From Nitrospira sp. UW-LDO-01 (GTDB lineage: Bacteria > Nitrospirota > Nitrospiria > Nitrospirales > Nitrospiraceae): a stretch of DNA of 39,575 nt. Under the pieces are notes generated by a model, which worked only from the letters and a program-made list of their open reading frames with translations, did no database searches and was not told the DNA's origin. The first letter of the stretch is position 1. The number at the start of each line of letters is the position of its first letter. The translations under genes and the position numbers were made by a program. The stretch spans positions 42,264 through 81,838 of the forward strand of contig NIUT01000146.1 in NCBI GenBank assembly GCA_002254365.1, in the 5' to 3' direction. Below, piece after piece: positions 5,500 to 39,571 of this stretch.

Positions 5500-6130
5500 C
5501 GCCAGGCATTGTACTCCGATGATGGGTATAGACCTCTTCAAAGGCCAATCCTTGTGCCGTGAGGGCTGATCGGCCGTCTCTCACGAGTTGCATGAATCGC
5601 CGAAAATCATCCACCGACAGATTAAATTGTCCGAGTCCCGTGGCCAGTGTCTTCCGCTCGTCAGGTGAGGCGTTGGAGTCGGCATCCGCGAGCGCTTCCA
5701 ACATGTCAGCCGTCCATCCACCGGCTCGAAAGTGCTCCAGGCTGGTTGCGGCGTCCTCCCCGCGCTTGTTGGTTAACGCACGTCGGGCGAATTCCTGAAT
5801 GGAGGGATCCGTTCCCTTGGCAAAGACGGATTGGAGCTGGATGACGGCCTGGATGATGCGATCAGCTTCACGTGTGCCCTCCGGCGGAAGTACCGCAGCC
5901 TGCTGAAGGGTGGCTAGTACCGCCATGGCTGACCCGATGTAGGGCGATGCCGCTTTTGCTCGTTGTGCCAGTGTTGAAGAAATTTCGCTCACGGTGATGG
6001 CCCATGCACCGTCGACCGGGAGCAAGATCAGCCATAGCGTGACCGTAAGGCTCGAGATGGGGTGAGGTTGCCAGCGGAATGATGATCGACCCGAAGGAAC
6101 CACTCCCTCTGGGGATGACCAGAGGCGCAT
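5489..6130 (-). CDS. Exported alpha-helical protein of unknown function
   Basis: The ORF encodes 213 residues with a hydrophobic segment at about residues 27-44 (SSLTVTLWLILLPVDGAWA), most likely a signal peptide ending at GAWA. The mature protein is mainly helical, with a central part QRAKAASPYIGSAMAVLATLQQAAVLPPEG and a repeated acidic-helix style (EALADADSNASPDERKTLATGLGQFNLSVDDFRRFMQLVRDGRSALTAQG). I do not recognise a family. The start is uncertain: no Shine-Dalgarno precedes 6130, and a TATAAT lies only a few bases upstream, so the message may be leaderless or begin at a downstream GTG. The stop codon lies within a GC palindrome. Confidence 0.6.
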   Translation of the reverse strand: MRLWSSPEGVVPSGRSSFRWQPHPISSLTVTLWLILLPVDGAWAITVSEISSTLAQRAKAASPYIGSAMAVLATLQQAAVLPPEGTREADRIIQAVIQLQSVFAKGTDPSIQEFARRALTNKRGEDAATSLEHFRAGGWTADMLEALADADSNASPDERKTLATGLGQFNLSVDDFRRFMQLVRDGRSALTAQGLAFEEVYTHHRSTMPGAAR

Positions 6131-6192
6131 GGGGAGATTATACAGAGTCGCGCGCAGAGGTTCCAGCGAGGAGCGGGCATCGATGTGATCTA

Positions 6193-6221
6193 TTGAAACC
6201 CTTAGAGAGACTTCCTATAAT
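6193..6221 (+). promoter_or_regulatory. Sigma-70-type promoter of the yifB/comM gene
   Basis: TTGAAA at 6193-6198 and a perfect TATAAT at 6216-6221 are separated by exactly 17 bases. The predicted start of transcription is at about 6228, some 37 bases before the GTG start codon of the yifB/comM-like gene, with GGAGAAAGG in between. This is the best-looking housekeeping promoter in the window. Confidence 0.75.
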
Positions 6222-6264
6222 GAACACATTTTGTTTCGGTTCGGTTGGAGAAAGGCACTGAGAC

Positions 6265-23154: not shown

Positions 23155-23657
23155 AGGGGGATGGGTTCACCCTGGTTGAGATCCTCGTTGCCATGACGAT
23201 TCTTGCCATTCTGGCGTCAGTGGCGATGCCACTGAGTAAGGTCTCGACGAAACGGACACAGGAAATTGAATTACGTCAACAGCTTCGAACAATTCGAAGC
23301 GCCATTGACTCATTTAAATTGGAATGGAACCGTGACGGGGACGTGTTACTGGGACCTGCCTGTGTGAAAAATAGGTTGGTATGTAAGGAAGTGTCAGGCC
23401 CGTACGGTTATCCCAAGACCGTTGAGACGTTGTTGGGAGTCAAACTGACTGGGGAAGAGGCCACCGTTCGGGGTACGACGATGAGACGCTACCTACGGAG
23501 CATGCCGATTGATCCACTGACCGGGAAGGCGGATTGGCTATTACGGTGTTACAAGGATCAGCCCAAGCCAATCAGCTGGTGTGGTGAAGACGTCTATGAT
23601 GTCATGACGCAAAGTGAGGCGGTCGCAATTGATGGATCCAAATATCAGGATTGGTAG
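23151..23657 (+). CDS. Pseudopilin (type II secretion G-like), first copy
   Basis: This 168-residue protein has a type IV prepilin N-terminus: [31 protein letters not shown]. Cleavage is expected after Gly5 and Glu5 of the mature protein is conserved. The rest is a globular pseudopilin head with [20 protein letters not shown] and a conserved end [21 protein letters not shown]...SKYQDW. The family recalls type II secretion G-type proteins found in non-proteobacterial phyla. It starts with GTG in a GTGA overlap with the secretin stop. Two Cys pairs in the head ([22 protein letters not shown]) may form disulphides. Confidence 0.88.
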
Positions 23658-24033
23658 AGCAGGCAGATGGAATGCAAAAGGATTCACGCTGGTCGAACTC
23701 ATGATTGTCGTGTCCATCATCGGCATTCTCGCTACTATCGCGGCTCCGTCCTACCAGTCCTCGTTGGTCAAGGCGAGAGAAACAGTCTTGCGACAGGATC
23801 TATTCACGATGCGTGACCTGTTGGACCATCACCGTGCGGACCAGGGGAAGTATCCGCCATCGTTGGAGGGCTTGGTGGCGACGGGGTATTTGCGGGCTCT
23901 TCCCAAAGATCCGTTCACGAATTCTTCGAGTTCTTGGCAGGAGATGAGTGATCCGACCGAGGGTGGTATTTTTGATGTGTATTCAGGGTCGGATCTTGTT
24001 GGGACCAACGGGGTTCCCTATAACAAGTGGTAA
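23632..24033 (+). CDS. Major-like pseudopilin (GspG-type), second copy
   Basis: This 133-residue GspG-type pseudopilin has prepilin motif [29 protein letters not shown] with conserved Glu5. A GspG-like C-terminal part follows ([44 protein letters not shown]...[21 protein letters not shown]). ATG 23632 is chosen because GAGGCGG (23616-23621) precedes it; the GTG at 23614 is inside that site. It overlaps the end of the first pseudopilin by 26 bases. Major pseudopilins build the short periplasmic pilus that pushes cargo through the secretin. Confidence 0.9.
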
Positions 24034-24040
24034 CTCAGGT

Positions 24041-24874
24041 ATGAGCTTGAACGGTCGTCCATTGTGCTGCCAATGCAAGGCGTTCCGATGGAACCAGGTA
24101 TGGAGAAACTTAGGCATTGGGCTGATTCTGCTCAATCTCGTAGCCTGTCGTTCTCTTGGTGTTCTTGGTGATCCAGGGATGTCGGATCTTCAGCTCACGG
24201 TCGATGTGCTCAACGTATCGTTGAAAGATGCGCAGCAGGCAATGGCAGAATTGCGTGCAGAAGTCGAGGTGCGGAACCAGGAGTTGGCTGAGACGCAGGT
24301 GATGCGCGCGCAGCTCGAAGGGCGGGCTCGAGAAGCGGAGAGCCGGTTGAGCGAGGCTCGCCATGTGATTGCTTTGCAACGGGAAGAGCTAGCCGAATCC
24401 AGGGCTGATCGGGAGCGAATTGCCAGGACAAGAGCAGCACTTCAGAGTCAGCTCAAACAGCTGCGAAAACAACTATCAAGAATCGAGAAGCAGGCATCTG
24501 GAAGTATTTCTCCAGCCATCATGAATTTTCAGGAAGAGAAGCTGCTGAGGCCAGTGCCGGCAGGTATGAAAGAGGCTGTAACGTTCGGTGATTCGCTAGA
24601 AGATCGTCGAGCCCTTCCGCCATCGGATGAGGCGATGTCTGGGGTAATGTCGGTTGATCGAGGGGAGGGACTGGCTCAATCGTCGATACTCGTTACACCA
24701 TCACGAGTCATGATCAAATCTGGAGATACGCTGTGGAGTCTTGCCCACCGATATCGTACCTCTGTGCATCAGCTCATGGCCGTCAACGCGCTCTCCACAG
24801 ATTATATTCAAGCGGGGCAGAGTCTTTGGTTGACGGAGTCGGTGGTGGATGGCTCAGAACTCAAACAACGGTAG
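24041..24874 (+). CDS. LysM coiled-coil lipoprotein in the secretion operon
   Basis: This 277-residue protein starts MSLNGRPLCCQCKAFRWNQVWRNLGIGLILLNLVACRS, a lipoprotein signal with lipobox LVAC (Cys36). A long coiled coil covers about residues 50-150 (LKDAQQAMAELRAEVEVRNQELAETQVMRAQLEGRAREAESRLSEARHVIALQREELAESRADRERIARTRAALQ). A LysM domain closes it (VMIKSGDTLWSLAHRYRTSVHQLMAVNALSTDYIQAGQSLWL), expected to bind peptidoglycan. I use the ATG at 24041, eight bases after the pseudopilin stop, because the track start at 23948 lies deep in that gene. It sits between pseudopilin and GspF genes and may anchor the machine to the cell wall. Confidence 0.85.
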   Translation: MSLNGRPLCCQCKAFRWNQVWRNLGIGLILLNLVACRSLGVLGDPGMSDLQLTVDVLNVSLKDAQQAMAELRAEVEVRNQELAETQVMRAQLEGRAREAESRLSEARHVIALQREELAESRADRERIARTRAALQSQLKQLRKQLSRIEKQASGSISPAIMNFQEEKLLRPVPAGMKEAVTFGDSLEDRRALPPSDEAMSGVMSVDRGEGLAQSSILVTPSRVMIKSGDTLWSLAHRYRTSVHQLMAVNALSTDYIQAGQSLWLTESVVDGSELKQR

Positions 24875-24895
24875 TCCTGTCGAAGGGCCGGAGCT

Positions 24896-26110
24896 ATGGC
24901 AGTATTTGCGTACCGAGTTGCACGATCTGACGGATCCATGATTCAAGGATCTCTGGAAGGAGAAGGGGAAGCGGCCGTTCGCGCGAAACTCGAATCACAA
25001 GGACTGCTGGTTTTTTCCCTCAACCGACGTGGGGCGCACTCAATGCCAAGCCCACGATCTTGGTCATTCGGTGGGCTTCCTCTCGGGCAGTTCATGATTT
25101 TCAATCAGGAATTATTGGCGCTTATCAAGTCTGGGTTGCCGATCTTACGAGTCTGGGACTTGTTGATTGATCGCGCAGGGCATCCAGGATTTCGGCAAGT
25201 ATTACGCGACGTAAAAGAAGACATCCGAAGTGGTGCCTCCGCATCGGAGGCGTTGGCAAAACATACCGCCTATTTCCCGGATCTGTATGTGGCGACCATC
25301 AAGGCTGGTGAGCAGTCGGGCAATCTTTCAGAGGTGCTGCAGCGGTATGTCGTGTATCTGAAGCTGATGATCGGGCTTCGTCAAAAGATGACGAAGGCGA
25401 TTTCTTATCCGATTTTCCTTGTTGTGATCGGCGTGGCCGTGATCGGTTTCTTGGTGGCCTATGTCATGCCCACATTTGTATCTGTGTATGGAGAAACGGG
25501 GAAGACTTTACCATGGGCGACACAGCTGTTGTTGCAGCTGGTTGCACATGCAGAGGCATGGGGCTTGGCTGCGATGATCATCCTGGTTGGGTTAATACTC
25601 AGCATTCGTACCTATTATGCCACTTCCGCCGGGCAGCTTATGATTGACCGTTTCATACTGCATCTTCCACTGGTGGGAACAATAGCAGTTAAACATAACA
25701 CCGTGCAGTTCACGAGAACATTGGGGACCATTCTTGCCGGAGGAACCCCACTTGTGGATGCCTTGCAGGGGGCACGGGCAGCTGTCTCAAATCGTTTTGT
25801 CTCCTCTCGTCTGGTTGGAGCCGTTGAGGAGATTCGGGAAGGAACAACCTTAGCTGATGCCCTGGAGCGCTGTCAGGTGCTGCCCAAGCTGGTGATTGAG
25901 ATGCTGTCGGTCGGTGAGGAGACGGGGTCGCTCGAAGCGATGCTGAAGGATGTGGCGGAATTTTACGAAGCGGATATGGATACGCAACTCAGCCAGCTTA
26001 CAACCTGGATGGAGCCAGCGTTGTTGCTTGTGATGGGAGTCCTGGTGGGCGGGATTGTGATCGTGATGTACCTTCCCGTTTTTCAAATGGCTGGAACGGT
26101 GGGCGGGTAG
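24896..26110 (+). CDS. gspF: GspF/PilC inner-membrane platform protein
   Basis: This 404-residue protein is built like GspF/PilC. An N-terminal cytoplasmic segment (FAYRVARSDGSMIQGSLEGEGEAAVRAKLESQGLLVFSL) leads into two repeated T2SSF domains with membrane helices. In domain 1 (about 70-192) see FNQELLALIKSGLPILRVWDLL and FPDLYVATIKAGEQSGNLSEVLQRYV, then ISYPIFLVVIGVAVIGFLVAYVMPTF. In domain 2 see FTRTLGTILAGGTPLVDALQGA and MLSVGEETGSLEAMLKDVAEFYE, then PALLLVMGVLVGGIVIVMYLPVF. GspF couples the ATPase to the growing pseudopilus. It lies about 20 bases after the LysM gene. It belongs to a common operon with the other machine parts. Confidence 0.95.
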   Translation: MAVFAYRVARSDGSMIQGSLEGEGEAAVRAKLESQGLLVFSLNRRGAHSMPSPRSWSFGGLPLGQFMIFNQELLALIKSGLPILRVWDLLIDRAGHPGFRQVLRDVKEDIRSGASASEALAKHTAYFPDLYVATIKAGEQSGNLSEVLQRYVVYLKLMIGLRQKMTKAISYPIFLVVIGVAVIGFLVAYVMPTFVSVYGETGKTLPWATQLLLQLVAHAEAWGLAAMIILVGLILSIRTYYATSAGQLMIDRFILHLPLVGTIAVKHNTVQFTRTLGTILAGGTPLVDALQGARAAVSNRFVSSRLVGAVEEIREGTTLADALERCQVLPKLVIEMLSVGEETGSLEAMLKDVAEFYEADMDTQLSQLTTWMEPALLLVMGVLVGGIVIVMYLPVFQMAGTVGG

Positions 26111-26146
26111 CCTGCGAGAAATCTATGAGGCTTTGGGAGTCTGTAT

Positions 26147-27874
26147 ATGTTGCGTAGCCTAGCGCGGCCCAGCTTGGCGGAGGTCTTAGTCAGTCAGGGT
26201 GTGCTGACAAGGCACAAGGTGGACGAGGTGTTCCGTCGTGTGAAGGGAGTGCCGGCTGCCTTAGGGAAGGCCTTGACCGATGATGGACTCCTGTCGGAAG
26301 ACCAGCTCGCTCATGCGTTGGCCAGTCAATACGGGCTGACGTACGATCCACTGACGAACTTTCGGATCAATCCTCAGTACTATGAGTCCATCTCGATCAA
26401 ATGGATGCAGCGCGTTCCGTTTGTGCCTCTGAACGAGCAGGCAGGGGTGTTGACGATTGCCGTTGCGGAACCCCACAACCTGCTGGGCCTGGACGAATTG
26501 GAACTGTTGGTTGGAAAACCGTTGGAGCTTGTTGTCAGTCCCAGAAGCGCCATCATGGCGGCACTGGAACGCAGTGAAGGGTCGAGCCAAGTACTCCGCG
26601 AGTTTGAAGCAGAATATCGATCAGTCTTGGTCAAAGAAGATGAGCGAGGGGAAGAGATACTTGCGCTGGATCATGCCGGAGAAGACCAGAGCCCGACGGT
26701 CAAACTGCTGGACTCAATCTTACTGAACGCCATGCAACGCCGAGCGAGCGATATCCACATCGAAGCGGCGGATCGTGCGACCAACGTCAAATTGCGTGTC
26801 GATGGGATTCTTGTTCCAGCCATGGAGCCGTTGGATATTCGATTACACGCTCCCCTGGTATCACGCCTCAAAGTGATGTCGGATCTCGACATTGCGGAGC
26901 GCCGTGTTCCTCAAGACGGAAGTTTCCGCATGCGACTGGATCGAAAAACAGTAGATTTCCGTGTGTCCATCTTGCCCAGTGTCTTTGGGGAGTCCGTGGT
27001 CATCAGAATCCTGGATCGAGATTCGATTGCGACCGGAGTCTCAGACTTGAAGCTTGAGCGTCTTGGTTTTAATCCGGAAGATCTGAAACGATTTCGAAAG
27101 TCGATCACACGCCCGCACGGCATGGTGTTGGTGACCGGGCCGACCGGAAGTGGGAAGACGACGACATTGTACGCCGCGATCTCGGAAATGAACACGCTGG
27201 AAGACAAGCTGATCACGATCGAAGATCCAGTCGAATACCAGCTATCGGGTGTGGTGCAGATTCCGGTCAATGAAAAGAAGGGACTCACCTTTGCCCGAGG
27301 TCTTCGGTCTATTCTCCGTCATGATCCGGATAAGATTATGGTCGGCGAAATTCGTGATGCTGAGACCGCACAGATCGCTATTCAGTCTGCGCTAACAGGA
27401 CATCTGGTCCTTACGACGGTTCATGCCAACAACGTCTTTGATGTCATTGGACGGTTCGCCTCGATGGGGATTGACGCCTATAATTTTCTGGCTGCGCTCA
27501 ATTGCGTGTTGGCTCAACGACTGGTTCGAATCCTGTGCCCATCCTGTCGGACCCCGGGAAAAGCACCACAGGCTCTGATTGAAGAATCAGGGTTGGACTA
27601 TGAGCAGTACAAGAATACGTTATTTTACGAGGGGCCAGGCTGTCCGCAATGTCATGGAACTGGATATCGAGGGAGAAAGTGCATTACGGAGTTTCTGGAT
27701 TTGACAGATGAGATTAAGGAGATGATTCATGCGGAACGACCACTCTCCGAGATCAGGTATCGAGCCGTAACCGGTGGAATGATTACGCTTCGGCAGTCGG
27801 CTCTCAACAAGGTGTTGAACGGCGAGACATCACTTCGTGAGATCAATCGTGTCACGTTCAGCGAGGAAGGCTAG
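26147..27874 (+). CDS. gspE: GspE/PilB-type secretion ATPase
   Basis: This 575-residue ATPase has an N-terminal MshEN/T2SSE_N domain (LAEVLVSQGVLTRHKVDEVFRRVKGVPAALGKALTDDGLLSEDQLAHALASQYG). The core has Walker A GPTGSGKTT (about 331-339), an Asp box (TIEDPVEYQL), Walker B (KIMVGEIRDAETAQIAIQSALTGHLVLTTVHAN) and the tetra-Cys zinc motif CPSCRTPG...GCPQCHGTGYRGR. It powers pseudopilus assembly in the cytoplasm with GspF and GspL/PilM. Similarity is shared between type II secretion and MSHA/type IV pilus ATPases. It follows the gspF stop by about 36 bases and is preceded by a GGGAG site. Confidence 0.95.
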   Translation: MLRSLARPSLAEVLVSQGVLTRHKVDEVFRRVKGVPAALGKALTDDGLLSEDQLAHALASQYGLTYDPLTNFRINPQYYESISIKWMQRVPFVPLNEQAGVLTIAVAEPHNLLGLDELELLVGKPLELVVSPRSAIMAALERSEGSSQVLREFEAEYRSVLVKEDERGEEILALDHAGEDQSPTVKLLDSILLNAMQRRASDIHIEAADRATNVKLRVDGILVPAMEPLDIRLHAPLVSRLKVMSDLDIAERRVPQDGSFRMRLDRKTVDFRVSILPSVFGESVVIRILDRDSIATGVSDLKLERLGFNPEDLKRFRKSITRPHGMVLVTGPTGSGKTTTLYAAISEMNTLEDKLITIEDPVEYQLSGVVQIPVNEKKGLTFARGLRSILRHDPDKIMVGEIRDAETAQIAIQSALTGHLVLTTVHANNVFDVIGRFASMGIDAYNFLAALNCVLAQRLVRILCPSCRTPGKAPQALIEESGLDYEQYKNTLFYEGPGCPQCHGTGYRGRKCITEFLDLTDEIKEMIHAERPLSEIRYRAVTGGMITLRQSALNKVLNGETSLREINRVTFSEEG

Positions 27875-27878
27875 CGAG

Positions 27879-28874
27879 ATGTGGGATTGGGCCAGGCGTC
27901 CCCCACAACGGTGTTTGAAATTCGGCACTGACTGCCTCGGATGGGCGGAGTGTGAGCGAAGCTGGTATGGGCGTCTTCGCCAGAGATACGGCATATCTCC
28001 CCTCGAAGTAGGCGCGATGAGGTCTTCACCCACAGTTGACAATGTGTCACAGCCATCGATCTTGGCTTCACAAGTTTGTGCATTAGCCGGTGTAGGCGGG
28101 AAGCGTTCTTTCATGAGAGGAGCCTTCTTCTCAGAACTTCCTCGGCGCATTGCGGTCTTGCTTCCTGACACAGCGGTGCGAACAGCGGTTTTATATCTCG
28201 ATCAGATTCCGATCAGACGTGAAGAGCGCGACGCGTTGATTCGGTGGCGATTGGGACAAGAGCAGATCTCCCCGCTGAATAGCGCGAAGATTGTGTCGCA
28301 GGTTTTTGGGGGTCATGGAGAAGGTCCGGAGCGTAGGTATACGGTCCTGGCTGTGGCCGTTCAAGAGTCGATTCTCAGTCAATACGAATCACTCTGTGAA
28401 TCTGTTGGCTTAATTCCCTCCGAGGTGGGAATCACGAGCTTGCGGCTGTTTGACCTCTGGAAGAGAATGTCACGGACGGCGGGTTGGTTACGCCACGATG
28501 TCTTGTGGATCACGCTAGCCGACCGATCGCTGACGATCATGGTCTTTCAACGGGGCCAGATCGTGTTCTACCGTTGCAAGCTATTGGGGGAGGACGCTTT
28601 AGAGGTCCTGGCTACAGCCGATTTGCAGAATAGGATTCTTGATGAGTGTCGTGCTTCCCTTGAGGTTTGTCAACAGCAGCATCCCTCCGTCGAGATACAT
28701 GACGCGGTGATCTGTGGCGATGGAGAGATGGCCTCGTTGCAGGCGGAGCTTCAGGGGCAACTCCAGCTTGCCGTGCAACAATTCGGTTGGAAATCAGTCG
28801 AAAAGCTTGGATGGGAAGCGAAGGGGAGCCAGCAAGGCATGGCCGCACTAGCCGCAATAGCAGGGGTTTCATAG
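27879..28874 (+). CDS. PilM/GspL-like cytoplasmic assembly protein
   Basis: This 331-residue protein sits at the position of pilM/gspL (between the ATPase and pilN). It has an actin-like fold signature: an N-terminal strand segment (CLKFGTDCLGWAECERSWYGRL), IAVLLPDTAVRTAVLYLDQIPIRREERDALIRWRLGQEQI, VLAVAVQESILSQYESLCESVGLIPSEVGITSLRLFDL, and a C-terminal part (DVLWITLADRSLTIMVFQRGQIVFYRCKLLG). It lacks a membrane helix, more like PilM than full GspL. PilM-type proteins link the GspE ATPase to PilN at the membrane. ATG 27879 is set by GAGGAAGG at 27863-27870; the track start at 27837 overlaps gspE. Family call is from context plus pattern. Confidence 0.8.
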   Translation: MWDWARRPPQRCLKFGTDCLGWAECERSWYGRLRQRYGISPLEVGAMRSSPTVDNVSQPSILASQVCALAGVGGKRSFMRGAFFSELPRRIAVLLPDTAVRTAVLYLDQIPIRREERDALIRWRLGQEQISPLNSAKIVSQVFGGHGEGPERRYTVLAVAVQESILSQYESLCESVGLIPSEVGITSLRLFDLWKRMSRTAGWLRHDVLWITLADRSLTIMVFQRGQIVFYRCKLLGEDALEVLATADLQNRILDECRASLEVCQQQHPSVEIHDAVICGDGEMASLQAELQGQLQLAVQQFGWKSVEKLGWEAKGSQQGMAALAAIAGVS

Positions 28875-28875
28875 C

Positions 28876-29505
28876 ATGGCAGCGAACAGTGCGTGGAGCA
28901 AATGGCCCGTTGAATTCCTTGCGCAGGTTCAATCAGGGAATCGTACAGGTCGGCAGTTCCAGATCAACTTATCCAGCCGGTATCGGGCGGGGATGACAAC
29001 GTATCGGACCTGGTTGATCAGCGCATGTATTGGACTTCTCTTGAGTATTGCTTGGAGCCTCTGGCAAGGAGTCTTGCTCTATGAGCAGAGTCAGATCATC
29101 GAGGCTGAACTGGAGCGAGTTCGCCAACTCGATCAGATGGTGATGGCTGAAGCCAGGAAGGAGGGGATTGATCTGTCCGAAGGTGCGTTGAAACGATTGT
29201 CCTCCGAAGTTGACCTGGCGAATCAGCTGCTTGAAAAACGGACATTCTCTTGGACCACGTTTTTAGGGGAATTGGAACAAACAATCCCTCCACGTCTTGC
29301 GCTCACGAGCATTCGTCTTGATCAGGCTGGCAAGACGGTTCAGCTCACCGGAACGGCAACGAACTTAGAAGAGATCACGGCGTTTACGGTTGGGTTGCAA
29401 AATCATGCCACATTCAAGGATCCAGTCTTGGCTCAGCATCGAGTTGGATCTGGCGGGCTGGTTGAATTTGACGTGACCGTGCGGTATCGACAAACCGGAG
29501 CATGA
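28876..29505 (+). CDS. PilN-like inner-membrane assembly protein
   Basis: This 209-residue protein has a single transmembrane helix (TWLISACIGLLLSIAWSLWQGVLLY) after a basic N-terminal segment. A coiled-coil stretch follows, then a PilN-type ferredoxin-like periplasmic domain: RTFSWTTFLGELEQTIPPRLALTSIRLDQAGKTVQLTGTATNLEEITAFTVGLQNHATFKDPVL. The conserved L-E-x-x-x-P core of PilN is visible. It starts one base after the PilM-like gene. PilN recruits PilM and pairs with PilO in the alignment complex. The long N-terminal 40 residues before the helix are unusual for PilN and could bind the PilM-like partner. Confidence 0.82.
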   Translation: MAANSAWSKWPVEFLAQVQSGNRTGRQFQINLSSRYRAGMTTYRTWLISACIGLLLSIAWSLWQGVLLYEQSQIIEAELERVRQLDQMVMAEARKEGIDLSEGALKRLSSEVDLANQLLEKRTFSWTTFLGELEQTIPPRLALTSIRLDQAGKTVQLTGTATNLEEITAFTVGLQNHATFKDPVLAQHRVGSGGLVEFDVTVRYRQTGA

Positions 29506-29508
29506 AGG

Positions 29509-30081
29509 ATGAGAGAGCGTCTGATCGCATTGCTGCAGCATCCCTTTGCTCCATTACTTCCCTGGAGCGGCATTGCGATGGGGCTTTTTGTGGTGCTGAT
29601 CTTTGTACAGTCTATTGGGCTTGCAGATCTGCAAGCCAAGCGTCAACGAGTAGAGGCAGAATGGGGAACTGTTCGCCAGTCGTTGGTGCATCACCGAGAA
29701 GCGAGGAATGCCGCCAAGGATCTAACTCAGGTTTGGGCGTTGCTTCCTGGTGAGCGAGACTTTGGCCCACTGGCGTTGGGGATTTCGGATGAGGCCAAGC
29801 GTGAGGGGGTTGTTCTACCGGCGTTGTCCTACAAGACGGAACCTACCACTGTCGCCCATACGACCAAAGGGCTATTACAGGGGTCGATGAGTGGGCGATA
29901 CGAGGATCTCCGGCGATTCATCCATGATCTGGAGACGGCAGACGAGTTATTGTTCATTGAGGATCTGGAGTTGAATCGAGCCGGGAGTCTACAGAATGCA
30001 GCTCTGACCTTTAACATAAAAATCGCAACCTATCTAAAAGCGGATCACGAGAAACGGAACATCCAGGAGATAATTCGCTAG
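29509..30081 (+). CDS. PilO-like inner-membrane assembly protein
   Basis: This 190-residue protein has one transmembrane helix (WSGIAMGLFVVLIFVQSIGLADL) followed by a coiled coil (QAKRQRVEAEWGTVRQSLVHHREARNAAKDLTQ). A PilO/GspM-like domain ends it, with LALGISDEAKREGVVLPALSYKT, GSMSGRYEDLRRFIHDLETADELLFIEDLELNR and AALTFNIKIATYL. It is the partner of PilN in the alignment complex. The start lies three bases after the pilN-like stop. Size and layout fit PilO. Confidence 0.82.
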   Translation: MRERLIALLQHPFAPLLPWSGIAMGLFVVLIFVQSIGLADLQAKRQRVEAEWGTVRQSLVHHREARNAAKDLTQVWALLPGERDFGPLALGISDEAKREGVVLPALSYKTEPTTVAHTTKGLLQGSMSGRYEDLRRFIHDLETADELLFIEDLELNRAGSLQNAALTFNIKIATYLKADHEKRNIQEIIR

Positions 30082-30083
30082 CC

Positions 30084-30671
30084 ATGGATGCAACGAAGAA
30101 GGTGATGATGGCAGGCTCGCTGATCCTCATATGGGCTGCGTTGGCAGTTTGGCAGTGGAATTTGCTGGAAGCGCCAGTTCGTGTTCCCCTAACCAATGTC
30201 ACAGGTCCCGGGACAGGAGGTCGTCAGTCGGACGGAAGAGGGGCAGGGTTGCATGTCAATCTGAGCCTGCTTAAGGCCACAGCGATGGAACGTGATGCCA
30301 CCTATATGATGCCTCGGAATATTTTCTCAATGACATCTGTCGAGGGAACACTCCCGGTGAGTTCTGACGTGGTCGTGCCTGATCAGGAAGAGACACAGGC
30401 AACGGAGTCTCTCACGGATCAGGGTGGTGTCGCAGAGTCGGGGCCGATCAAATATTTGGGGTTCCTGCGTATGGGGGAGGGGGTAACGACCAGTCAGTCT
30501 GTGGCGGTACTTCGCAAGGATGACGATGTCTTGGTGCTCAAGGCCGGTGATCGTATTGACAACCGGCTGGTGCTCAAAAAAATCACGCCTGAGAATGTGA
30601 CCGTGCGGGATTCTGGTGCACAAGTAGACCGGATGGTTGGGTTGTCGGACGAGGCCGAAGCCCAGGAGTGA
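30084..30671 (+). CDS. PilP/GspC-like pilotin-loop protein
   Basis: This 195-residue protein has an N-terminal membrane segment (VMMAGSLILIWAALAVWQWNLL), a Pro/Gly/Ser-rich linker (to about residue 118), and a small C-terminal beta-domain (GPIKYLGFLRMGEGVTTSQSVAVLRKDDDVLVLKAGDRIDNRLVLKKITPENVTVRD). The domain resembles the homology region of GspC and PilP, which touches the secretin N0 domain. It lacks a PDZ domain. It starts two bases after the pilO-like stop, so it is in the same operon. I call it PilP/GspC-like from position and architecture; sequence alone is weak. Confidence 0.7.
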   Translation: MDATKKVMMAGSLILIWAALAVWQWNLLEAPVRVPLTNVTGPGTGGRQSDGRGAGLHVNLSLLKATAMERDATYMMPRNIFSMTSVEGTLPVSSDVVVPDQEETQATESLTDQGGVAESGPIKYLGFLRMGEGVTTSQSVAVLRKDDDVLVLKAGDRIDNRLVLKKITPENVTVRDSGAQVDRMVGLSDEAEAQE

Positions 30672-30675
30672 CACA

Positions 30676-31221
30676 ATGATGCGGCGTTCTGCAGCATGGT
30701 TGAGAGGGACTGAGGCAGGGTTTTCCTATCTTATGGTCATGCTGGCCGTGACACTCATGGGGTTTTTGATGACCGTTGCAGCGAAGCAGTGGAAGACGAT
30801 AATCCAGCGGGAACTCGAGATGGACTTACTGGCCAAGGGCATGGAGATTCAAGCGGCGTTGGCCCTGTATTCGGCGACAGCGAAGGCAGGAAGGGTCATG
30901 CCAGGCGAGATCTATCCTCACACGCTCGCTGAGCTGACACGGCCCCCCAAACCGTTTCTCAGGAAGGTGTATCTTGATCCGGTAGGACATGGCGAATGGG
31001 AACTGCTGCGAGCCCCGACGGGAGGAATCATGGGGGTCCGAAGCACGAGTAAGCTCAGGCCCATCAAACAGAACAACTTTCCATTGGTCGTTCGTCATTT
31101 TCAGGGTAAACCGACTCACCATGACTGGGTCTTTCAACATCCCAGTCCCTCTCAGAGAGGGGTGCTGGGGCCACCCATGCCTGTGGGTGGGGGACCAGGA
31201 CGGATACCCACAGTGAACTAG
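30676..31221 (+). CDS. Pseudopilin-like protein lacking Glu5
   Basis: This 181-residue protein carries a prepilin-type start GTEAG|FSYLMVMLAVTLMGFLMTVAAKQW: the Gly/Phe junction and hydrophobic helix are present, but position 5 of the mature form is Met, not Glu. The head (QRELEMDLLAKGMEIQAALALYSA, YPHTLAELTRPPKPFLRKVYLDPVGHGEWELL, GGIMGVRSTSKLRPIKQNNFP) resembles a known group of Glu-less type II secretion pseudopilins. AGGAGTG precedes ATG 30676. It is the last gene of the operon, five bases after the PilP-like stop. It may cap the pseudopilus, as GspK (also Glu-less) does. Confidence 0.78.
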   Translation: MMRRSAAWLRGTEAGFSYLMVMLAVTLMGFLMTVAAKQWKTIIQRELEMDLLAKGMEIQAALALYSATAKAGRVMPGEIYPHTLAELTRPPKPFLRKVYLDPVGHGEWELLRAPTGGIMGVRSTSKLRPIKQNNFPLVVRHFQGKPTHHDWVFQHPSPSQRGVLGPPMPVGGGPGRIPTVN

Positions 31222-32638: not shown

Positions 32639-32675
32639 CTGCATCCTTCTCAATTGTGAGTCGTCGGTGAGAACT

Positions 32676-33986
32676 ATGGAAGCGCTGAGTCAAGCCGTTT
32701 CAGAACCAGGTAGTGAACCATCGAAGCCATTGCCTACGATGGAATATGTCGTTGACCTAGTTTCCAACGCGAAACGGGCAGCCAGACGACTTGCCGCGCT
32801 ACCGACATTGACCAAGAACCAAGCACTGTTGGCTATGGCGGATGCGTTGGAAGCCAAATCGGACGAATTGATCACGGCAAATGAGCGAGATCTCGAGGCC
32901 TTTGGGACTGCCAATGACAAGAAGGCCATGGCGGATCGCTTGCGGTTGACCGACAAACGGATCAAGGAGATGGCAGCGGGGATCCGCGAGGTGGCGCAGC
33001 TGCCGGATCCTGTGGGGATGATGTCTGCCATGTGGACAAGACCCAACGGGATGCAGGTGGGGCGGGTTCGCGTGCCGATCGGGGTGATCGGAATCATTTA
33101 TGAGTCGCGCCCGAATGTGACAGCTGATTCCGCTGCGCTTTGCCTCAAGTCGGGGAATGTCTGTGTGTTGAGAGGCGGCAGCGAAGCGATTCATTCCAAT
33201 ACGGCGATCGCGTCCATTCTCTCCGACGCGTCACAAAAAGCCGGTATCCCACCGGGTGCGATCACGTTCGTCGATCGCGCGGATCGTGAGATCGTACCGG
33301 TCTTGCTCAAGCAGGATCAGTGTATCGACTTGATCATTCCCCGTGGTGGCGAATCGTTGATGAAACTCATTGCCGAACACTCGACCATTCCTGTAGTCAA
33401 ACATGATGCGGGTGTCTGTCATATCTATGTCGATGCTGCAGCCGATGTCGCCATGGCGGAAGCGATTTGCCTCAATGCGAAGGTGCAGCGCCCATCAACC
33501 TGCAACGCCATGGAAACACTGCTGGTTCACCAGTCGATTGCGCGCACGTTCTTGCCGGCGCTGGCGGCTGGTCTCCGGGTAGCCCATGTTGAAATCCGAG
33601 GCTGTGCCAAGACCTGTCAGTTGATCTCGGAGGCCAAGCCGGCCAGTGAGAACGATTACGGGAAAGAATTTTTGGACCTCGTCCTGGCCGTGAAAGTCGT
33701 CAAGAACATGGATGAGGCTATGGAGCATATTGCGCAGTATGGCTCGCGACATACGGAAGCGATCGTGACGTCGGACTATGGGCGCTCGATGCGGTTTCTT
33801 AAAGAGGTTGATGCCAGTGCGGTGATAGTGAACGCTTCTACACGCCTCAATGACGGATATCAGTTCGGTCTCGGGGCCGAGATCGGGATCAGCACGTCGC
33901 GGATTCATGCTCGGGGTCCGATGGGATTAGAAGAACTGACCTGCTCAAAGTTTATGGTTTTAGGGAGCGGCCAGCTCCGCGAGTGA
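32676..33986 (+). CDS. proA: Gamma-glutamyl phosphate reductase (ProA)
   Basis: This 436-residue member of the aldehyde dehydrogenase superfamily matches ProA in full: NAKRAARRLAALPTLTKNQALLAMADALE at the N-terminus, RVPIGVIGIIYESRPNVTADSAALCLKSGNVCVLRGGSEAIHSN, and catalytic Cys276 in NAKVQRPSTCNAMETLLVH. The C-terminal segments SRHTEAIVTSDY and VNASTRLNDGYQFGLGAEIGISTSRIHARGPMGLEELT are also present. It reduces glutamyl-5-phosphate to the semialdehyde in proline synthesis, using NADPH in the cytoplasm. About 20 extra residues at the N-terminus precede the family core. proB is not in the window. The next gene begins immediately after its stop. Confidence 0.96.
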   Translation: MEALSQAVSEPGSEPSKPLPTMEYVVDLVSNAKRAARRLAALPTLTKNQALLAMADALEAKSDELITANERDLEAFGTANDKKAMADRLRLTDKRIKEMAAGIREVAQLPDPVGMMSAMWTRPNGMQVGRVRVPIGVIGIIYESRPNVTADSAALCLKSGNVCVLRGGSEAIHSNTAIASILSDASQKAGIPPGAITFVDRADREIVPVLLKQDQCIDLIIPRGGESLMKLIAEHSTIPVVKHDAGVCHIYVDAAADVAMAEAICLNAKVQRPSTCNAMETLLVHQSIARTFLPALAAGLRVAHVEIRGCAKTCQLISEAKPASENDYGKEFLDLVLAVKVVKNMDEAMEHIAQYGSRHTEAIVTSDYGRSMRFLKEVDASAVIVNASTRLNDGYQFGLGAEIGISTSRIHARGPMGLEELTCSKFMVLGSGQLRE

Positions 33987-35771
33987 ATGTCCTCGGATCC
34001 CATTGCATGTGCCCTGTTCACTCCAGGCCATCTCCGATTTCCTTCCACCCGTGCGCTTGCTGAATCCTTCCACAAGGTCGGCGGATACGTTGGCACGTTA
34101 CCGACCGGGCACCTCGTCTTTTATCGACCTGATGGCAGACGGTTTCTTGCCACCGATCCCACGGGCCAACCTCTCCATGAGTGCGAATGGGAGGTGAGTG
34201 AACTGGGGGTCGTGTCCCTCAAGCGCGCCCGGGTCAAGCTGGATTGGGGGGGCTGGGTCGGAATAGTACCTGCCGGCTTGGTGAATGAAACCCGAGTGAA
34301 TCTTGCCACGAGGTCTAACTGGCAGCGAACTACGCCAGAAGATCTTCGTAGTTTGGCGGCAAAGGCCTTACGGGTGCCAATTGAAGAGGTGCGGTGGTTT
34401 TATCGGGATGAGGATTTTTCCATTGAGCCCACCGGGCTGGCGACGATCCGCCAACGAAAAGATGCGTTCTATCTGTTGGACGATGGCGGGTTTGAAACCG
34501 CACACTTTATGTCCTGCATGGGTGCGATGCACTGGGATGAGATTGATTTTCTCCCAGTTGTTGAACTGTTCAAATCGCTGTTACCCGGGACAGGTTCCGC
34601 GGTGTTGGAACTCATTCGAGGATTGTATGACGATCAACAACAAGGGCATTCGGTACCACGAGCGTTACGGTACCGTGGTATCCCTCCCTATCCATCGGAG
34701 GCGGCGTTTCGGCTGTTCAGCGCCTTTTTCACACCTCAATCATCAGGGACCGGGGATCCCTTTGTCGACTTCATGAATCCATCGAAATCGCAAGTCGTCG
34801 CCTGGCTGCCTGCCGATCATCCACCGGTACGCTATTTTGACGAACGCCAGGGGGTATGTATTACGGTAAAAGATGGGGTCGCGCAGAAGGCAACCCTTGC
34901 GACGGATACGGGAGGCTTGGCCTACGTCAATCCACTGGGTCGTCGCGTGCTTCCCCTTGATCGCAGTATGCGAATAGAGGGCCAGCAGATGATCCTCAAG
35001 GATCGTGAACAAGAAACGATCATCTCTTTGCCGATCGGTCTTCATGTTCGGACGGCCCCATCGCCTGAAGGACCGATGAGCCCTGTCGACTGGCGGACGG
35101 TCTTTGTACCGGAGCCTCCTGCCCTTCATCCGCGTGAAGCGTTTGGCGCTGTGCTGTTGTATCCGGAAGGCCACGAGGAGATCAGTGAGCTTGCGGCACA
35201 ACCCTTTGTCGCCGACTATCTGGATGATCTCGGAGAGCAGGACCGTGAGATCGGCAGACTACGATCGCTGGCGGAACGCGTGCTCATTGTGAACGGAGAT
35301 GCCGTCATTTCGACATGCGTGCTCTTCGACCGACCACGCGACTATACGGTGAGAGTCCACTATGGAGCTTATGCCCAGCGGCAGGCGCAACAGCTCTGGA
35401 CTCAGTGTGCGGAAATCAATCGATGGGACTGGCTGCAACGAATACGTATGGGCGCCGAAGATGTGGTGCAGGAGTCAATGGCTCGTCATGGGCTGTATGA
35501 TCTCCTGTATCTCTGGCTCTCCTACGACACGTTTGGGTCGCTGACGGCAATGAGGACAACTCTCGCCAATGCAGGCCAAGCGTTGAGGCGGGGAGGTGAT
35601 GCATTTGTCGTCGGCCCTGTCGGTGTGCCGGCGGTCCTGGCATCGGAGCTGTGGCAGCTCTGTTGGAGCGATTCAGTGGCGGCGCTGCCCACGTTTGCTA
35701 TGCATAAAACGATCTTGCCGAAGGCCAGGGTCAAAACAGGGCTTACGTTGTTCCATCTCAGACGGGTGTAA
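33987..35771 (+). CDS. Large protein of unknown function abutting proA
   Basis: This 594-residue protein begins on the base after the proA stop, so both are probably one transcript. There is no signal peptide or membrane helix. Distinct parts are a beta-rich N-terminal region (GTLPTGHLVFYRPDGRRFLATDPTGQPLHECEWE), a central segment (VKDGVAQKATLATDTGGLAYVNPLGRRVLP), and a C-terminal alpha/beta part ending LYLWLSYDTFGSLTAMRTTLANAGQALRRGGDAFVVGPVG. That part has a weak flavour of the last strands of a SAM-dependent methyltransferase. I do not recognise a family and do not assign a function. A degenerate methyltransferase is one possibility. Confidence 0.6.
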   Translation: MSSDPIACALFTPGHLRFPSTRALAESFHKVGGYVGTLPTGHLVFYRPDGRRFLATDPTGQPLHECEWEVSELGVVSLKRARVKLDWGGWVGIVPAGLVNETRVNLATRSNWQRTTPEDLRSLAAKALRVPIEEVRWFYRDEDFSIEPTGLATIRQRKDAFYLLDDGGFETAHFMSCMGAMHWDEIDFLPVVELFKSLLPGTGSAVLELIRGLYDDQQQGHSVPRALRYRGIPPYPSEAAFRLFSAFFTPQSSGTGDPFVDFMNPSKSQVVAWLPADHPPVRYFDERQGVCITVKDGVAQKATLATDTGGLAYVNPLGRRVLPLDRSMRIEGQQMILKDREQETIISLPIGLHVRTAPSPEGPMSPVDWRTVFVPEPPALHPREAFGAVLLYPEGHEEISELAAQPFVADYLDDLGEQDREIGRLRSLAERVLIVNGDAVISTCVLFDRPRDYTVRVHYGAYAQRQAQQLWTQCAEINRWDWLQRIRMGAEDVVQESMARHGLYDLLYLWLSYDTFGSLTAMRTTLANAGQALRRGGDAFVVGPVGVPAVLASELWQLCWSDSVAALPTFAMHKTILPKARVKTGLTLFHLRRV

Positions 35772-35941: not shown

Positions 35942-36118
35942 ATGCCAAGTGTGTTGGATAAGGTGATTGAGAGAGAATTGAGAAAAGAGCTACGGGATGC
36001 CCTAATCAGGTTTGAACAGCAGTTGCGACAGTCCGGCGTAAGTGATGACAACATCAAGAATCGGATGCGGGGCGCCAAGCAGTTTGTCGCGTTTCTGTAT
36101 GGGCGATACCTCGGATAG
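35942..36118 (+). CDS. 58-residue helical protein (below ORF-track limit)
   Basis: MPSVLDKVIERELRKELRDALIRFEQQLRQSGVSDDNIKNRMRGAKQFVAFLYGRYLG is encoded with a strong ribosome site GGAGGAGGA (35928-35936), five bases before the ATG. The track misses it because it is under 60 residues. It is highly charged and all-helical. The part RFEQQLRQSGVSDDNIKNRMRGAKQFVAFLYGR resembles the core-binding (SAM-like) N-terminal domain of tyrosine recombinases, but no catalytic domain follows. It may be a free-standing small DNA-binding or adaptor protein. Its neighbours (unknown protein upstream, type I secretion downstream) give no further clue. Confidence 0.6.
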   Translation: MPSVLDKVIERELRKELRDALIRFEQQLRQSGVSDDNIKNRMRGAKQFVAFLYGRYLG

Positions 36119-36351
36119 TCGTAGTTCGGTTGCCTTGATCGCGGATGAGGCCTGCCCATGAGAAGCGTGCAACATCACCTGCCATTCCATCGCGACCGTG
36201 AAGGTGCGAATGCCTGGTCACAACAAGATGCGCGCTCATGGACAATGCGAAAATGAAATGAGAACCGGATCCTGCGATTACGGAAGCGGCATCTCTGTGC
36301 TAATCCTTGAAAGTATTTGGCCATCGCCAACCTGTCCCCTAAGATGGCTGC

Positions 36352-38535
36352 ATGTCAGCTGCTTCGGAGACAACCTCTTCCCAGCAATCTGATCCGATAC
36401 TGTCATCGCTCGAGTCGGATGAGTCCGATACCGGATTGCGATGCCTTCTGATTATCGCGCAGTACTATGACCTTCCGGTCAATGGCGCGCAGCTTCGACA
36501 TCAGTTTGCCCAGCCTGGACAGAAACTGTCCGACAGTGAACTGCTCCGCACCGCCAAGAATCTTGGATTGAACGCCGGTCTCGTCACGAGTGAGTGGCAC
36601 AAGCTGCAAGGCGCCTCTCTTCCAGCCATGGCCAAGCTCGTGGATGGAGGCTATGTGGTGGTGTCCAAGATCGAAGGCGAGCAGGTGCTGGTTCAGAATC
36701 CTGTGGAAGGTTATTCGCTCGTCCTCTCTCGTGACCGATTCGAACTGATCTGGACGGGAGAGTTGGTGCTCGTGACGAAGCGAGTCACGATTCGTCTTCA
36801 TGATCTCACGTTCGATCTGACCTGGGTGATCCCAGGGATCGTCAAGTATCGGAAGTTGTTCGGCGAGATCTTGATCGCATCGGCGTTTCTCCAATTCGCG
36901 GCCCTCCTCACGCCGTTCTTGACACAACTGGTGATCGATACGATTCTTGTGCACCAGGAGTTGAGCACGCTTTCGTTGATGGCCGGCGGCCTCATCGCAC
37001 TGACTATCTTTGAGGGCATCATCCGTGGGCTCCGCACCTATCTGTTTGCTCATACAACCAATCGCATGACGGTCACCCTGGGTGCTCGACTCTTTCGCCA
37101 TATTCTGGCGCTCCCTGCGACGTATTTTGATGCCAAGCGCGCGGGCGATACGGTCGCTCTGGTGCATGAGTGGGAACAGCTGCGCCAATTCGTCACGAGC
37201 CACTCCATGACGATGCTCCTGGATGTTCCCTTTACCGTGGTCTTTCTGGCCTGCATGTGGCTCTTGAGCCCCGCGCTCACGCTGGTGGTCATGGTCACAC
37301 TGCCGATCTATGCGCTGTTGTACTACGCTATGGCCCCGTCAATACGGGCCTGTCTACGCGATCTATGCAATCGTGAAACGGACAATCAGGCATTCGTGGT
37401 CGAGGCCGTCAGCGGCATCCAAACGGTGAAGGCCATGGCGGGTGAGCCGTCGCTCTGGCGGAAGTGGGACGCACAGCTGGCCGGTTATGTGCAGGCGAGT
37501 GTTCGTGCCACTAGCCTGATCACGATCGCACGGTACATTGCGACGGGGGTGTACCACGTCACCATGGCAGTGGTCTTTTGGCTCGGGGCCTCTCGCGTGA
37601 TTGAAGGGCAGTTGAGTATCGGGCAGTTGATCGCGTTCGTCCTGTTGTCGGCTCACGTGATGGGCCTCCTTCTGAGATGGGTCACACTTTGGCAGGAGTT
37701 CCAGCAAGCGGGTATTTCGGTCCAGCGGTTGGGGGACGTACTGAACAGGCCGCCAGAGCCCTCCTATCACCCGAATCGGATCACGATTCCACAGGTCCAG
37801 TGGCAGGTGCGTTTTGAAACTGTCACGTTTCGCTACCGGCCGGATGGGCCATCAGTGATCCGCAAGCTGTCTTTTTCAGTGGAGCCGGGCCAGATTGTCG
37901 GGATCGTGGGACGTTCAGGCTCAGGCAAAAGCACGATGGCCAAATTGCTCCAGTGTCTGTATAGGCCTGAACAGGGACGAATTCTGGTGGATGGTGTGGA
38001 TCTCGTACAGGTCGATCCGGCTTGGCTGCGTAGGCACGTGGGTGTTGTGCTGCACGAGAATGTCCTCTTCAATGGTTCGGTTCGGGACAACATCGCGATG
38101 ATCAATCCCGCCATGTCGATAGAGCAGATTATGCAGGCGGCAACGTTGTCCGGAGCGCACCAGTTTATCGTCGAATTAGGGGACGGGTATGACACGCAGA
38201 TCGGCGAGCACGGCTGTCTGCTCTCCAGTGGGCAGCGTCAACAGATTGCGATTGCCCGAGCCCTTGCCGCGAATCCCCGCCTGCTGATATTCGACGAGGC
38301 CTTGAGTGCGTTAGACGAGGAATCTGAAACGGTGTTTCAACAGAATATGGGTCAGATCGCTCAGGGCCGTACTGTATTCATCATGGCCACTCGGTTGAGT
38401 TCACTGCGCCAGGCCCATCGCATTTTTGTCCTGGATAAAGGGGAGATTCTTGAACAGGGCACATATGAGGAACTGCGCGAGCAGGAGGGAACTTCCTCAC
38501 GCCTCTCGGTCTCTCACGTTGGAAGTCAATCATGA
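36352..38535 (+). CDS. HlyB-like type I secretion ABC transporter with altered ATPase motifs
   Basis: This 727-residue protein is a full homologue of HlyB. An N-terminal C39-like domain (about 25-150) has Thr in place of the catalytic Cys (DTGLRCLLIIAQYYD). Six membrane helices lie at about 165-455 (GLRTYLFAHTTNRMTVTLGARLFRHILALPATYFDAKRAGDTVALV), and the nucleotide-binding domain at about 480-715. Walker A GRSGSGKST (520-528), Walker B LLIFDEA (Asp648, Glu649) and SALD are intact. The Q-loop has His568 (VVLHENVLF) instead of Gln, the signature is LSSGQ, and the H-loop has Thr680 (MATRLSS) instead of His. Such transporters export RTX-type proteins with HlyD and TolC. It is immediately upstream of the HlyD-like gene. 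Confidence 0.93.
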   Translation: MSAASETTSSQQSDPILSSLESDESDTGLRCLLIIAQYYDLPVNGAQLRHQFAQPGQKLSDSELLRTAKNLGLNAGLVTSEWHKLQGASLPAMAKLVDGGYVVVSKIEGEQVLVQNPVEGYSLVLSRDRFELIWTGELVLVTKRVTIRLHDLTFDLTWVIPGIVKYRKLFGEILIASAFLQFAALLTPFLTQLVIDTILVHQELSTLSLMAGGLIALTIFEGIIRGLRTYLFAHTTNRMTVTLGARLFRHILALPATYFDAKRAGDTVALVHEWEQLRQFVTSHSMTMLLDVPFTVVFLACMWLLSPALTLVVMVTLPIYALLYYAMAPSIRACLRDLCNRETDNQAFVVEAVSGIQTVKAMAGEPSLWRKWDAQLAGYVQASVRATSLITIARYIATGVYHVTMAVVFWLGASRVIEGQLSIGQLIAFVLLSAHVMGLLLRWVTLWQEFQQAGISVQRLGDVLNRPPEPSYHPNRITIPQVQWQVRFETVTFRYRPDGPSVIRKLSFSVEPGQIVGIVGRSGSGKSTMAKLLQCLYRPEQGRILVDGVDLVQVDPAWLRRHVGVVLHENVLFNGSVRDNIAMINPAMSIEQIMQAATLSGAHQFIVELGDGYDTQIGEHGCLLSSGQRQQIAIARALAANPRLLIFDEALSALDEESETVFQQNMGQIAQGRTVFIMATRLSSLRQAHRIFVLDKGEILEQGTYEELREQEGTSSRLSVSHVGSQS

Positions 38536-38542
38536 GGCGGCG

Positions 38543-39571
38543 ATGGCTCTCAGTACACTAGAACGACAGTGGATGGTCTGGAAGGCGGCCTGGCAGGCTG
38601 AGTCAGGTCAGCCTCCCAATAGAGCCGTTCCAGAGGGACCGGCCGCAGAGTTTCTTCCGGAGGCGTTGGACATTCAGGAGACGCCTCCCTCTCCGATCGG
38701 CCGAGCGCTCTTGTGGACCATCCTGATCTCCTGTGTGGTCGGAGCGGTATGGACCACGGTCGTGAAGATTGATACCGTGACGATGGCGCAGGGGAAGGTC
38801 GTACAAAGTGAGGACTCAAGGGTCCTTCACCCGCATGAAGCAGGGGTCATTACAGCCATTCACGTTCATGAGGGACAAGTGGTCAAATCGGGCGAGATCT
38901 TGATCGAACTGGATCTGACCAGGAAACTCACGGAAGCCGAGCCACAGTCTCACATCCTGGTCTCAGATGTTCAGCAGATGACAGCGGCGGAGCGCTCCGC
39001 GCTCGAAGACAATGCCGCGTCCGTTTCGCAAGCGATCACGAAAGTCGAACAGAACGCGGGAGTTCAGCGGGTGCTCTCACCGATTGATGGGGTAGTGCGG
39101 CAACTTGGGGTTCAGACGGTGGGCACGGTGGTGACGCCGGCACAGCCGCTGTTTATCATTGTGCCTCTGAAGCACTCGCTGGAGGTCGAGGCGCGGATCG
39201 AGAGTAGGGATGTGGGGATCGTCCTCAAGGGACAGCCGGTTGCGATCAAGCTCGCCAGGGTTCAGCCGGTGTATCAGGAGACCATTGCCGGTCATGTAAT
39301 GAGGGGGCCTGACAAGAGCACGTCGAACACACACGTCGGGCTTGTTTCGGCTATCAGGGTTGGTCTTGATCATTCGACGACTCGAGTCGGGAGCACAGAG
39401 GTCAAGCTTGTTCCCGGTATGGCGGTGGCGGTTGAAATCAAGACCGGTCAGCGCCGGATGATCGAATACCTCCTGGAGCCCGTACACCAGCTCATGAACG
39501 AACGTGTGCGGGAATGGACCGCGCTCATTCAGGTTGTGCGCAGTTTCATCGAGCGCCGGAATCTATCGTGA
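38543..39571 (+). CDS. HlyD-like membrane fusion protein with missing hairpin
   Basis: This 342-residue protein has one transmembrane helix (about 55-73), a half-lipoyl motif (VLHPHEAGVITAIHVHEGQVVKSGEILIELD, about 94-124), a second lipoyl half (RVLSPIDGVVRQLGVQTVGTVVTPAQPLFIIVP, 176-208), and a C-terminal beta-barrel that ends VPGMAVAVEIKTGQRRMIEYLLEPVHQLMNERVRE as in HlyD. HlyD of E. coli is 478 residues; here only about 50 residues separate the lipoyl halves instead of about 190, so the coiled-coil hairpin toward TolC is nearly absent. The ATG at 38543 has GAGGCGG before it and lies seven bases after the ABC-transporter stop. The track start at 38426 is inside that gene. The stop is four bases before the window end. 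Confidence 0.9.
   Translation: MALSTLERQWMVWKAAWQAESGQPPNRAVPEGPAAEFLPEALDIQETPPSPIGRALLWTILISCVVGAVWTTVVKIDTVTMAQGKVVQSEDSRVLHPHEAGVITAIHVHEGQVVKSGEILIELDLTRKLTEAEPQSHILVSDVQQMTAAERSALEDNAASVSQAITKVEQNAGVQRVLSPIDGVVRQLGVQTVGTVVTPAQPLFIIVPLKHSLEVEARIESRDVGIVLKGQPVAIKLARVQPVYQETIAGHVMRGPDKSTSNTHVGLVSAIRVGLDHSTTRVGSTEVKLVPGMAVAVEIKTGQRRMIEYLLEPVHQLMNERVREWTALIQVVRSFIERRNLS

Follow-up and report, generated by a model that had tools for sequence, protein, structure and literature searches.

Non-hydrolysing sites are well known in heterodimeric ABC proteins that handle drugs, peptides or ions, and in the classical heterodimers the partner subunit contributes a non-canonical signature motif opposite the degenerate site. 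In E. coli HlyB, exchange of the H-loop histidine (H662A) preserves ATP binding and dimerisation of the nucleotide-binding domains (NBDs), leaves less than 0.1% of ATPase activity and yields no secretion (PMC6222333, PMC5018854). In the atypical type I secretion systems (T1SS) of MARTX proteins, very large RTX proteins of Vibrio, both RtxB and RtxE are required for secretion (PMC3034196), and the adaptor BesA illustrates that a missing hairpin alone does not exclude a tripartite pump (PMC3807786). In the open-access literature we found no HlyB-type secretion ATPase with a clade-wide, still selected loss of its hydrolytic sites, nor one of this kind paired with a hairpin-less HlyD. A candidate for such a pair is encoded in the DNA analysed here, a stretch of 39,575 nucleotides from Nitrospira sp. 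UW-LDO-01 (contig NIUT01000146.1), referred to as the window; its genome is denoted G000.

The ABC exporter gene occupies positions 36352-38535 on the + strand and encodes 727 residues with a C39-like domain (CLD), a transmembrane domain (TMD) and an NBD, detected in Pfam as PF03412, PF00664 and PF00005. In profile searches, the protein scored 843 bits against TIGR01846, above the curated cut-off of 725.6, and is therefore a member of the HlyB family; in the PDB it aligns with E. coli HlyB (7sgr, E 1e-206). This agrees with an earlier note on the sequence, which had called it an otherwise well-preserved HlyB homologue. As it appears to be a hydrolysis-impaired paralogue, we term it dHlyB, using d for odd copies of the window's type and c for canonical ones. 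Walker A (GRSGSGKST, residues 520-528, 37909-37935, +) is intact, with its G, K, S and T positions invariant in 11/11 d copies, as is the D-loop (SALD, residues 652-655), and Walker B has both Asp648 and Glu649 (38293-38298, +; Glu649 is GAG at 38296-38298). The catalytic set of Q-loop Gln, Walker-B Glu and H-loop His is incomplete: the Q-loop position, aligned to the Q of LQDN in 7sgr, is His568 (CAC, 38053-38055, +), and the H-loop position, aligned to H662, is Thr680 (ACT, 38389-38391, +). The signature motif or C-loop (residues 624-628, 38221-38235, +) reads LSSGQ, changed at the third position of LSGGQ. The residues and coordinates that the note had reported are exact.

Among 79 genomes of the genus, d copies were found in 11 Nitrospira species (including UBA5698, ACE_NIT7 and RBC100), one in each, and are monophyletic. 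At the Q-loop, signature, Walker-B Glu and H-loop positions, the copies of the window, G005, G042, G036 and G076 read H/LSSGQ/E/T, and that of G009 reads H/LSSGQ/E/S. The other five read Y/LSSGQ/D/H (G075), H/LSSGQ/D/H (G072), Q/LSNGQ/G/H (G035), Q/LSSGQ/G/H (G027) and Q/LSSGQ/D/N (G060, where the gene is split across two contigs). Over the clade, the Q-loop residue is His, Tyr or Gln, the signature LSSGQ in ten copies and LSNGQ in one, the Walker-B Glu replaced by Asp or Gly in five, and the H-loop residue Thr or Ser in six, Asn in one and His in four. Every one of the 11 copies is without the Walker-B Glu or without the H-loop His, through differing substitutions, and no catalytic position shows a consistent replacement residue. 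The idea that His and Thr might be fixed in a clade holds for the window's six-species subclade, where His568 is joined by Thr or Ser680, and does not extend to the other five members, with their Walker-B Asp or Gly and an H-loop that has His in four and Asn in G060. Close strains with Gln and His would have pointed to a sequencing error or a unique mutation; the five orthologues with 79-95% identity to dHlyB all carry His568 and Thr/Ser680, and the same residues in independent assemblies rule out both an error and a private mutation.

For comparison, of 130 different HlyB-type sequences, whole or fragmentary, drawn from the genus, the family and further phyla, 109 have Q/LSGGQ/DE/H. Only d copies depart at the Walker-B Glu or the H-loop His, bar one distant match from Rhodocyclaceae whose alignment at that position is uncertain, and the few exceptions outside the d clade are partial sequences, differ in the signature only, or are a distant, poorly aligned match. 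One HlyB fragment, from G032 (Nitrospira ACE_NIT12; L129 / L145), combines LSSGQ with canonical Q, DE and H and falls outside the d clade.

The earlier note had proposed a search for a second, canonical HlyB-like subunit, and one was found in the same genome: it is 65% identical to dHlyB, has canonical LQEN, LSGGQ, FDEA and AHRLS motifs, and its gene is preceded by one for an RTX protein and followed by those for a full-length HlyD and a TolC-type protein. The 11 genomes with d copies all encode a canonical HlyB as well, along with HlyD, TolC and a giant RTX protein. In three of them (G005, G009 and G072), the giant RTX gene, whose product has about 3800 residues, lies between the d and c genes on one contig (in G009 it extends over two sequence pieces). 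These giant RTX proteins (~3800 aa; L063:5967-17384, L073:4552-16077) have a GYSLxG lipase-like motif near the N-terminus and are followed by a canonical T1SS; in several genomes, TolC at this locus precedes genes for a histidine kinase and a LuxR-type regulator. In G075 (L070:13655-19000), the odd T1SS genes are direct neighbours of the canonical ones, with cas1/cas2-like genes between them and the ProA locus.

In the window, dhlyB follows genes for a ProA-like aldehyde dehydrogenase family protein (32667-33986, +), which served as locus marker, and for a 594-residue protein of the resident, ProA-adjacent locus (33987-35771, +). Phylogenetically, the d copies fall into a single clade (100/100), and the c copies that accompany them in the 11 genomes make up a second (100/100). 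The d clade groups with the HlyB of G008, G001, G074, G058, G034 and G064 (99/95), and five of these genomes (G001, G008, G034, G058 and G064) have their T1SS at this locus or close to it, behind ProA and the 594-residue protein. A tree with a joint d and c clade was rejected (p-AU 0.014), and with it the idea that d arose recently from the canonical copy by tandem duplication, though long-branch effects are possible given the long stem of the d clade. Because the d copies group with those of the resident locus and a joint clade is rejected, the best reading makes d the resident T1SS gene and c a separate T1SS lineage; we infer the order in which the two systems arrived in these genomes. ProA genes at least 91% identical to that of the window occur in exactly the 11 d genomes, the next best being 86% identical, so that d has been retained in 11/11 species of its group.

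No gene for TolC or another outer-membrane factor adjoins any d locus; the same genome has one next to its canonical HlyD, and a TolC-type gene follows the resident HlyD in G008, G001 and G064. Between the 594-residue protein and dhlyB, the window contains no substrate gene; in G035, RTX frames occupy this place. The interval also holds a conserved 58-residue frame (MPSVLDKVIERELRKELRDAL..., 35942-36118), with counterparts in the corresponding position of G008, G001 and G021. Directly behind dHlyD, at least 7 of the 11 genomes encode a small, secreted-looking protein of about 140 residues after the signal (L067:12479-12952 and relatives; G000:C203:599-1003); neither this nor the 594-residue protein has a match in Pfam. 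In G042, second, broken versions of both with internal stops (G042:C208:1213-1550, 5581-6819) may stem from contamination or from a duplicate that has decayed. At 23151-31221, ahead of the ProA locus, the window carries a run of genes with type IV pilin or type II secretion-like N-termini. Rfam gave no match within the window.

The adaptor gene behind dhlyB (38543-39571, +) encodes a HlyD-type protein of 342 residues, dHlyD, which scores 191 bits against TIGR01843, under the cut-off of 209, and does so in two stretches. Alignment with canonical and resident HlyD reveals a gap of 139 residues, equivalent to canonical residues 127-265, where the periplasmic helical hairpin would be expected. The in-frame deletion junction is at 38920/38921 (+), and its boundary is common to G000, G005, G036, G009 and G076; the contig of G042 ends before this region. 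Hairpin loss coincides with the Thr/Ser680 subclade, HlyD being full-length in the other five d genomes, and the HlyD of G009 and G076 has an extra deletion of 15 residues. In the structure model of canonical HlyD, long helices span residues 126-154, 167-231 and 237-311, with residues 130-300 mostly at pLDDT >90; the model of dHlyD shows the beta domains, with no more than a short helix where the hairpin would be. With mean pLDDT values of 65 (dHlyD) and 63 (canonical HlyD), the models were used only for the presence of hairpin helices. Judged by them, the segment absent from dHlyD is the TolC-contacting hairpin, and dHlyD does not possess the TolC-docking element that marks a T1SS adaptor. 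As the locus has no adjacent TolC gene and its adaptor no TolC-docking hairpin, normal type I secretion by the dHlyB/dHlyD pair alone appears unlikely.

Just upstream of dhlyB, a promoter-like element of 31 nt (TTGGCC-17 nt-TAAGAT, 36317-36347, +; TTGGCCATC-N-CCTAAGATGG) ends 4 nt before the start codon. The 79 genomes contain 22 copies, all of them, where coordinates were compared, just upstream of hlyB copies, and 0 matches to a reversed control pattern; the window's genome has two, before dhlyB and before chlyB (G000:C51:5401-5431). Around the element, 33/43 positions are invariant among ten d copies, versus 18% of fourfold sites in the gene. The element is plausibly a sigma-70-type promoter with transcription starting at or near the ATG, and the position of its -10-like box, 6 nt before the ATG, suggests leaderless transcripts; a generic promoter scan at 9/12 matches did not list it. 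It contains an inverted repeat, GCCATC...GATGGC. An RNA structure was considered in view of a conserved 7-bp inverted repeat, but folding was no better than that of shuffled sequences in two of three cases, and a promoter fits the element better.

The d reading frames have no internal stop in any copy read; a TGA in G027 sits beyond the end of its 725-residue frame. Under a codon model, dN/dS over the whole of HlyB is about 0.22-0.23 for d and 0.07 for c, and by domain, d versus c, 0.22 versus 0.048 for the TMD, 0.23 versus 0.063 for the NBD and 0.23 versus 0.18 for the CLD. For close pairs of d copies it is 0.15-0.30, below 1 in every pair, with upper confidence limits of at most 0.49 for HlyB; the corresponding upper limit for HlyD is 0.87. 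HlyD itself gives 0.43 in its shortened form, 0.35 in full-length d copies and 0.10 in canonical ones. Open frames together with the values from close pairs rule out a pseudogene, and the dHlyB protein is still under purifying selection, albeit weakly (0.43 in HlyD) and in a way that could in part act against misfolding. Retention of the CLD for substrate binding was rejected: its dN/dS is similar in d and c (ratio 1.3, interval 0.75-2.09), but all d domains lie at about 0.22 and the CLD is not singled out. All 12 ATP-binding or sandwich residues (the A-loop Tyr, Walker-A G/G/G/K/S/T, C-loop S/G/Q, Walker-B Asp and D-loop Asp) are invariant in the d clade, versus 49% of the NBD columns that are invariant in c, a contrast with p of about 2e-4 if columns are treated as independent. 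By contrast, none of the Q-loop Gln, the catalytic Glu and the H-loop His is constant. Such a combination is what would be expected if ATP binding mattered and hydrolysis did not.

We put the probability at roughly one half that dHlyB and dHlyD are the ABC protein and adaptor of a superseded T1SS that have been repurposed, binding ATP, hydrolysing it poorly or not at all, and acting in a non-transport or helper role; dHlyB is probably repurposed rather than simply broken. We infer the loss of hydrolysis, continued ATP binding, the course of events and the role today as follows. The resident T1SS of this Nitrospira lineage would have been superseded by another, canonical T1SS in the same genomes. 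Afterwards the resident pair may have lost, or never kept, an adjacent TolC gene, the residues for ATP hydrolysis would have been lost from its HlyB by several routes, and in the window's subclade the TolC-docking hairpin would have been lost from its HlyD. By analogy with HlyB H662A, dHlyB is expected to retain ATP binding with very slow or no hydrolysis, its NBDs presumably closing as an ATP-sandwich dimer. It may work with the shortened HlyD in the inner membrane, as a complex whose role for the neighbouring RTX system is non-secretory, regulatory or that of a helper. The narrower proposal, that the pair is a dedicated non-secretory complex serving as an ATP-dependent regulator or assembly helper of canonical RTX secretion, is tentative, and we consider it less likely than not. 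Against repurposing speak ABC proteins with a Walker-B Asp or an altered H-loop that can keep some activity, Pdr5 being the cited exception, and hairpin-less adaptors that can serve tripartite pumps, as BesA does (PMC3807786); the other T1SS also supplies a TolC.

The alternatives rank in the order of a heterodimer, slow decay and an active exporter, the first two being live alternatives. According to the first and main rival, a possible reading to which we assign a minor share, dHlyB would be the non-hydrolysing half of a mixed dimer with canonical HlyB, having one degenerate and one consensus ATP site. The potential partner is present in 11/11 genomes, the two ABC genes flank one giant RTX gene in three of them, the ATP-binding residues are retained, and degenerate sites usually carry Asp for the Walker-B Glu, whether or not the H-loop is altered too (PMC7756269); the need of MARTX secretion for both RtxB and RtxE is a further point in favour (PMC3034196). 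On the other hand, the partner has a plain LSGGQ in 11/11 canonical copies, the signature change being in dHlyB's own motif. Relatives of the c copy in other Nitrospira, judged by gene content, manage secretion with no odd copy present, the membrane domain of dHlyB is relaxed by a factor of about 4-5, and a hairpin-less HlyD alongside would be unexpected for a secretion partner. The earlier note had offered either an ATPase half dependent on another subunit, or a slow or regulatory transporter. The former gains from the canonical HlyB in the same genome and loses by the fully canonical signature of that protein and by its close relatives, which by their gene content work without an odd copy; the latter is closer to the evidence.

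Slow decay, which we regard as unlikely, would make the locus a superseded system without a positive role that drifts to loss, with the motif changes and the hairpin deletion as its steps. The relaxed selection on TMD and NBD, more so on dHlyD, the several independent substitutions of catalytic residues, the lack of an adjacent TolC gene and the further HlyD deletion in G009 and G076 all fit this course. It is less easily reconciled with the copies read, which have neither stop nor frameshift (that of G060 extending over two contigs), with dN/dS below 1 in every pair up to the confidence limits given above, with retention of the gene in every species of the group, and with the invariant ATP-binding residues and conserved upstream element. 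An ordinary active homodimeric exporter that tolerates the substitutions and borrows TolC from the neighbouring locus is very improbable, for although fold, TMD and ATP-binding motifs are intact, LSSGQ retains the functional Ser and Gly, and BesA is a hairpin-less adaptor in a tripartite pump (PMC3807786), three motifs depart together, the hairpin is gone, the catalytic positions have no consistent replacement in the clade, and HlyB H662A has less than 0.1% ATPase and no secretion.

The 11 related species show the change in stages, with loss of the Walker-B Glu and a full HlyD in some and loss of the H-loop His and a hairpin-less HlyD in others. Set beside the canonical copies in the same cells, these stages allow one to ask what remains within the reach of a secretion ABC protein once ATP hydrolysis is gone, and whether parts of a T1SS are reused after its replacement.

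Of the known systems, E. coli HlyB (TIGR01846) shares with dHlyB the C39-like domain, TMD and NBD, the length of 727 residues, Walker A, the A-loop Tyr, the Walker-B Asp and the D-loop, and an hlyD gene directly behind; dHlyB differs in its Q-loop His, LSSGQ and H-loop Thr, in a HlyD without hairpin and in having no adjoining TolC gene. As in TAP1/2, TM287/288 and CFTR, the d copies show Walker-B Glu to Asp exchanges and H-loop changes with ATP-binding residues kept, and as in heterodimers with degenerate sites a canonical paralogue is present in the same cell (PMC7756269). Unlike in those heterodimers, the signature of the candidate partner is canonical, the architecture is that of a full HlyB, and the mixed dimer is here a hypothesis. 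The MARTX system RtxB/RtxD/RtxE likewise has two HlyB-type ABC genes near a very large RTX gene (PMC3034196), a likeness in gene arrangement that G005, G009 and G072 show; in Nitrospira, each ABC gene has its own HlyD and the genes do not form one operon. BesA resembles dHlyD as an adaptor without alpha-hairpin (PMC3807786). It belongs to a drug efflux pump of Borrelia, whereas dHlyD is encoded behind a HlyB-type gene and, unlike in BesA, its loss of the hairpin is recent and visible against full-length relatives.
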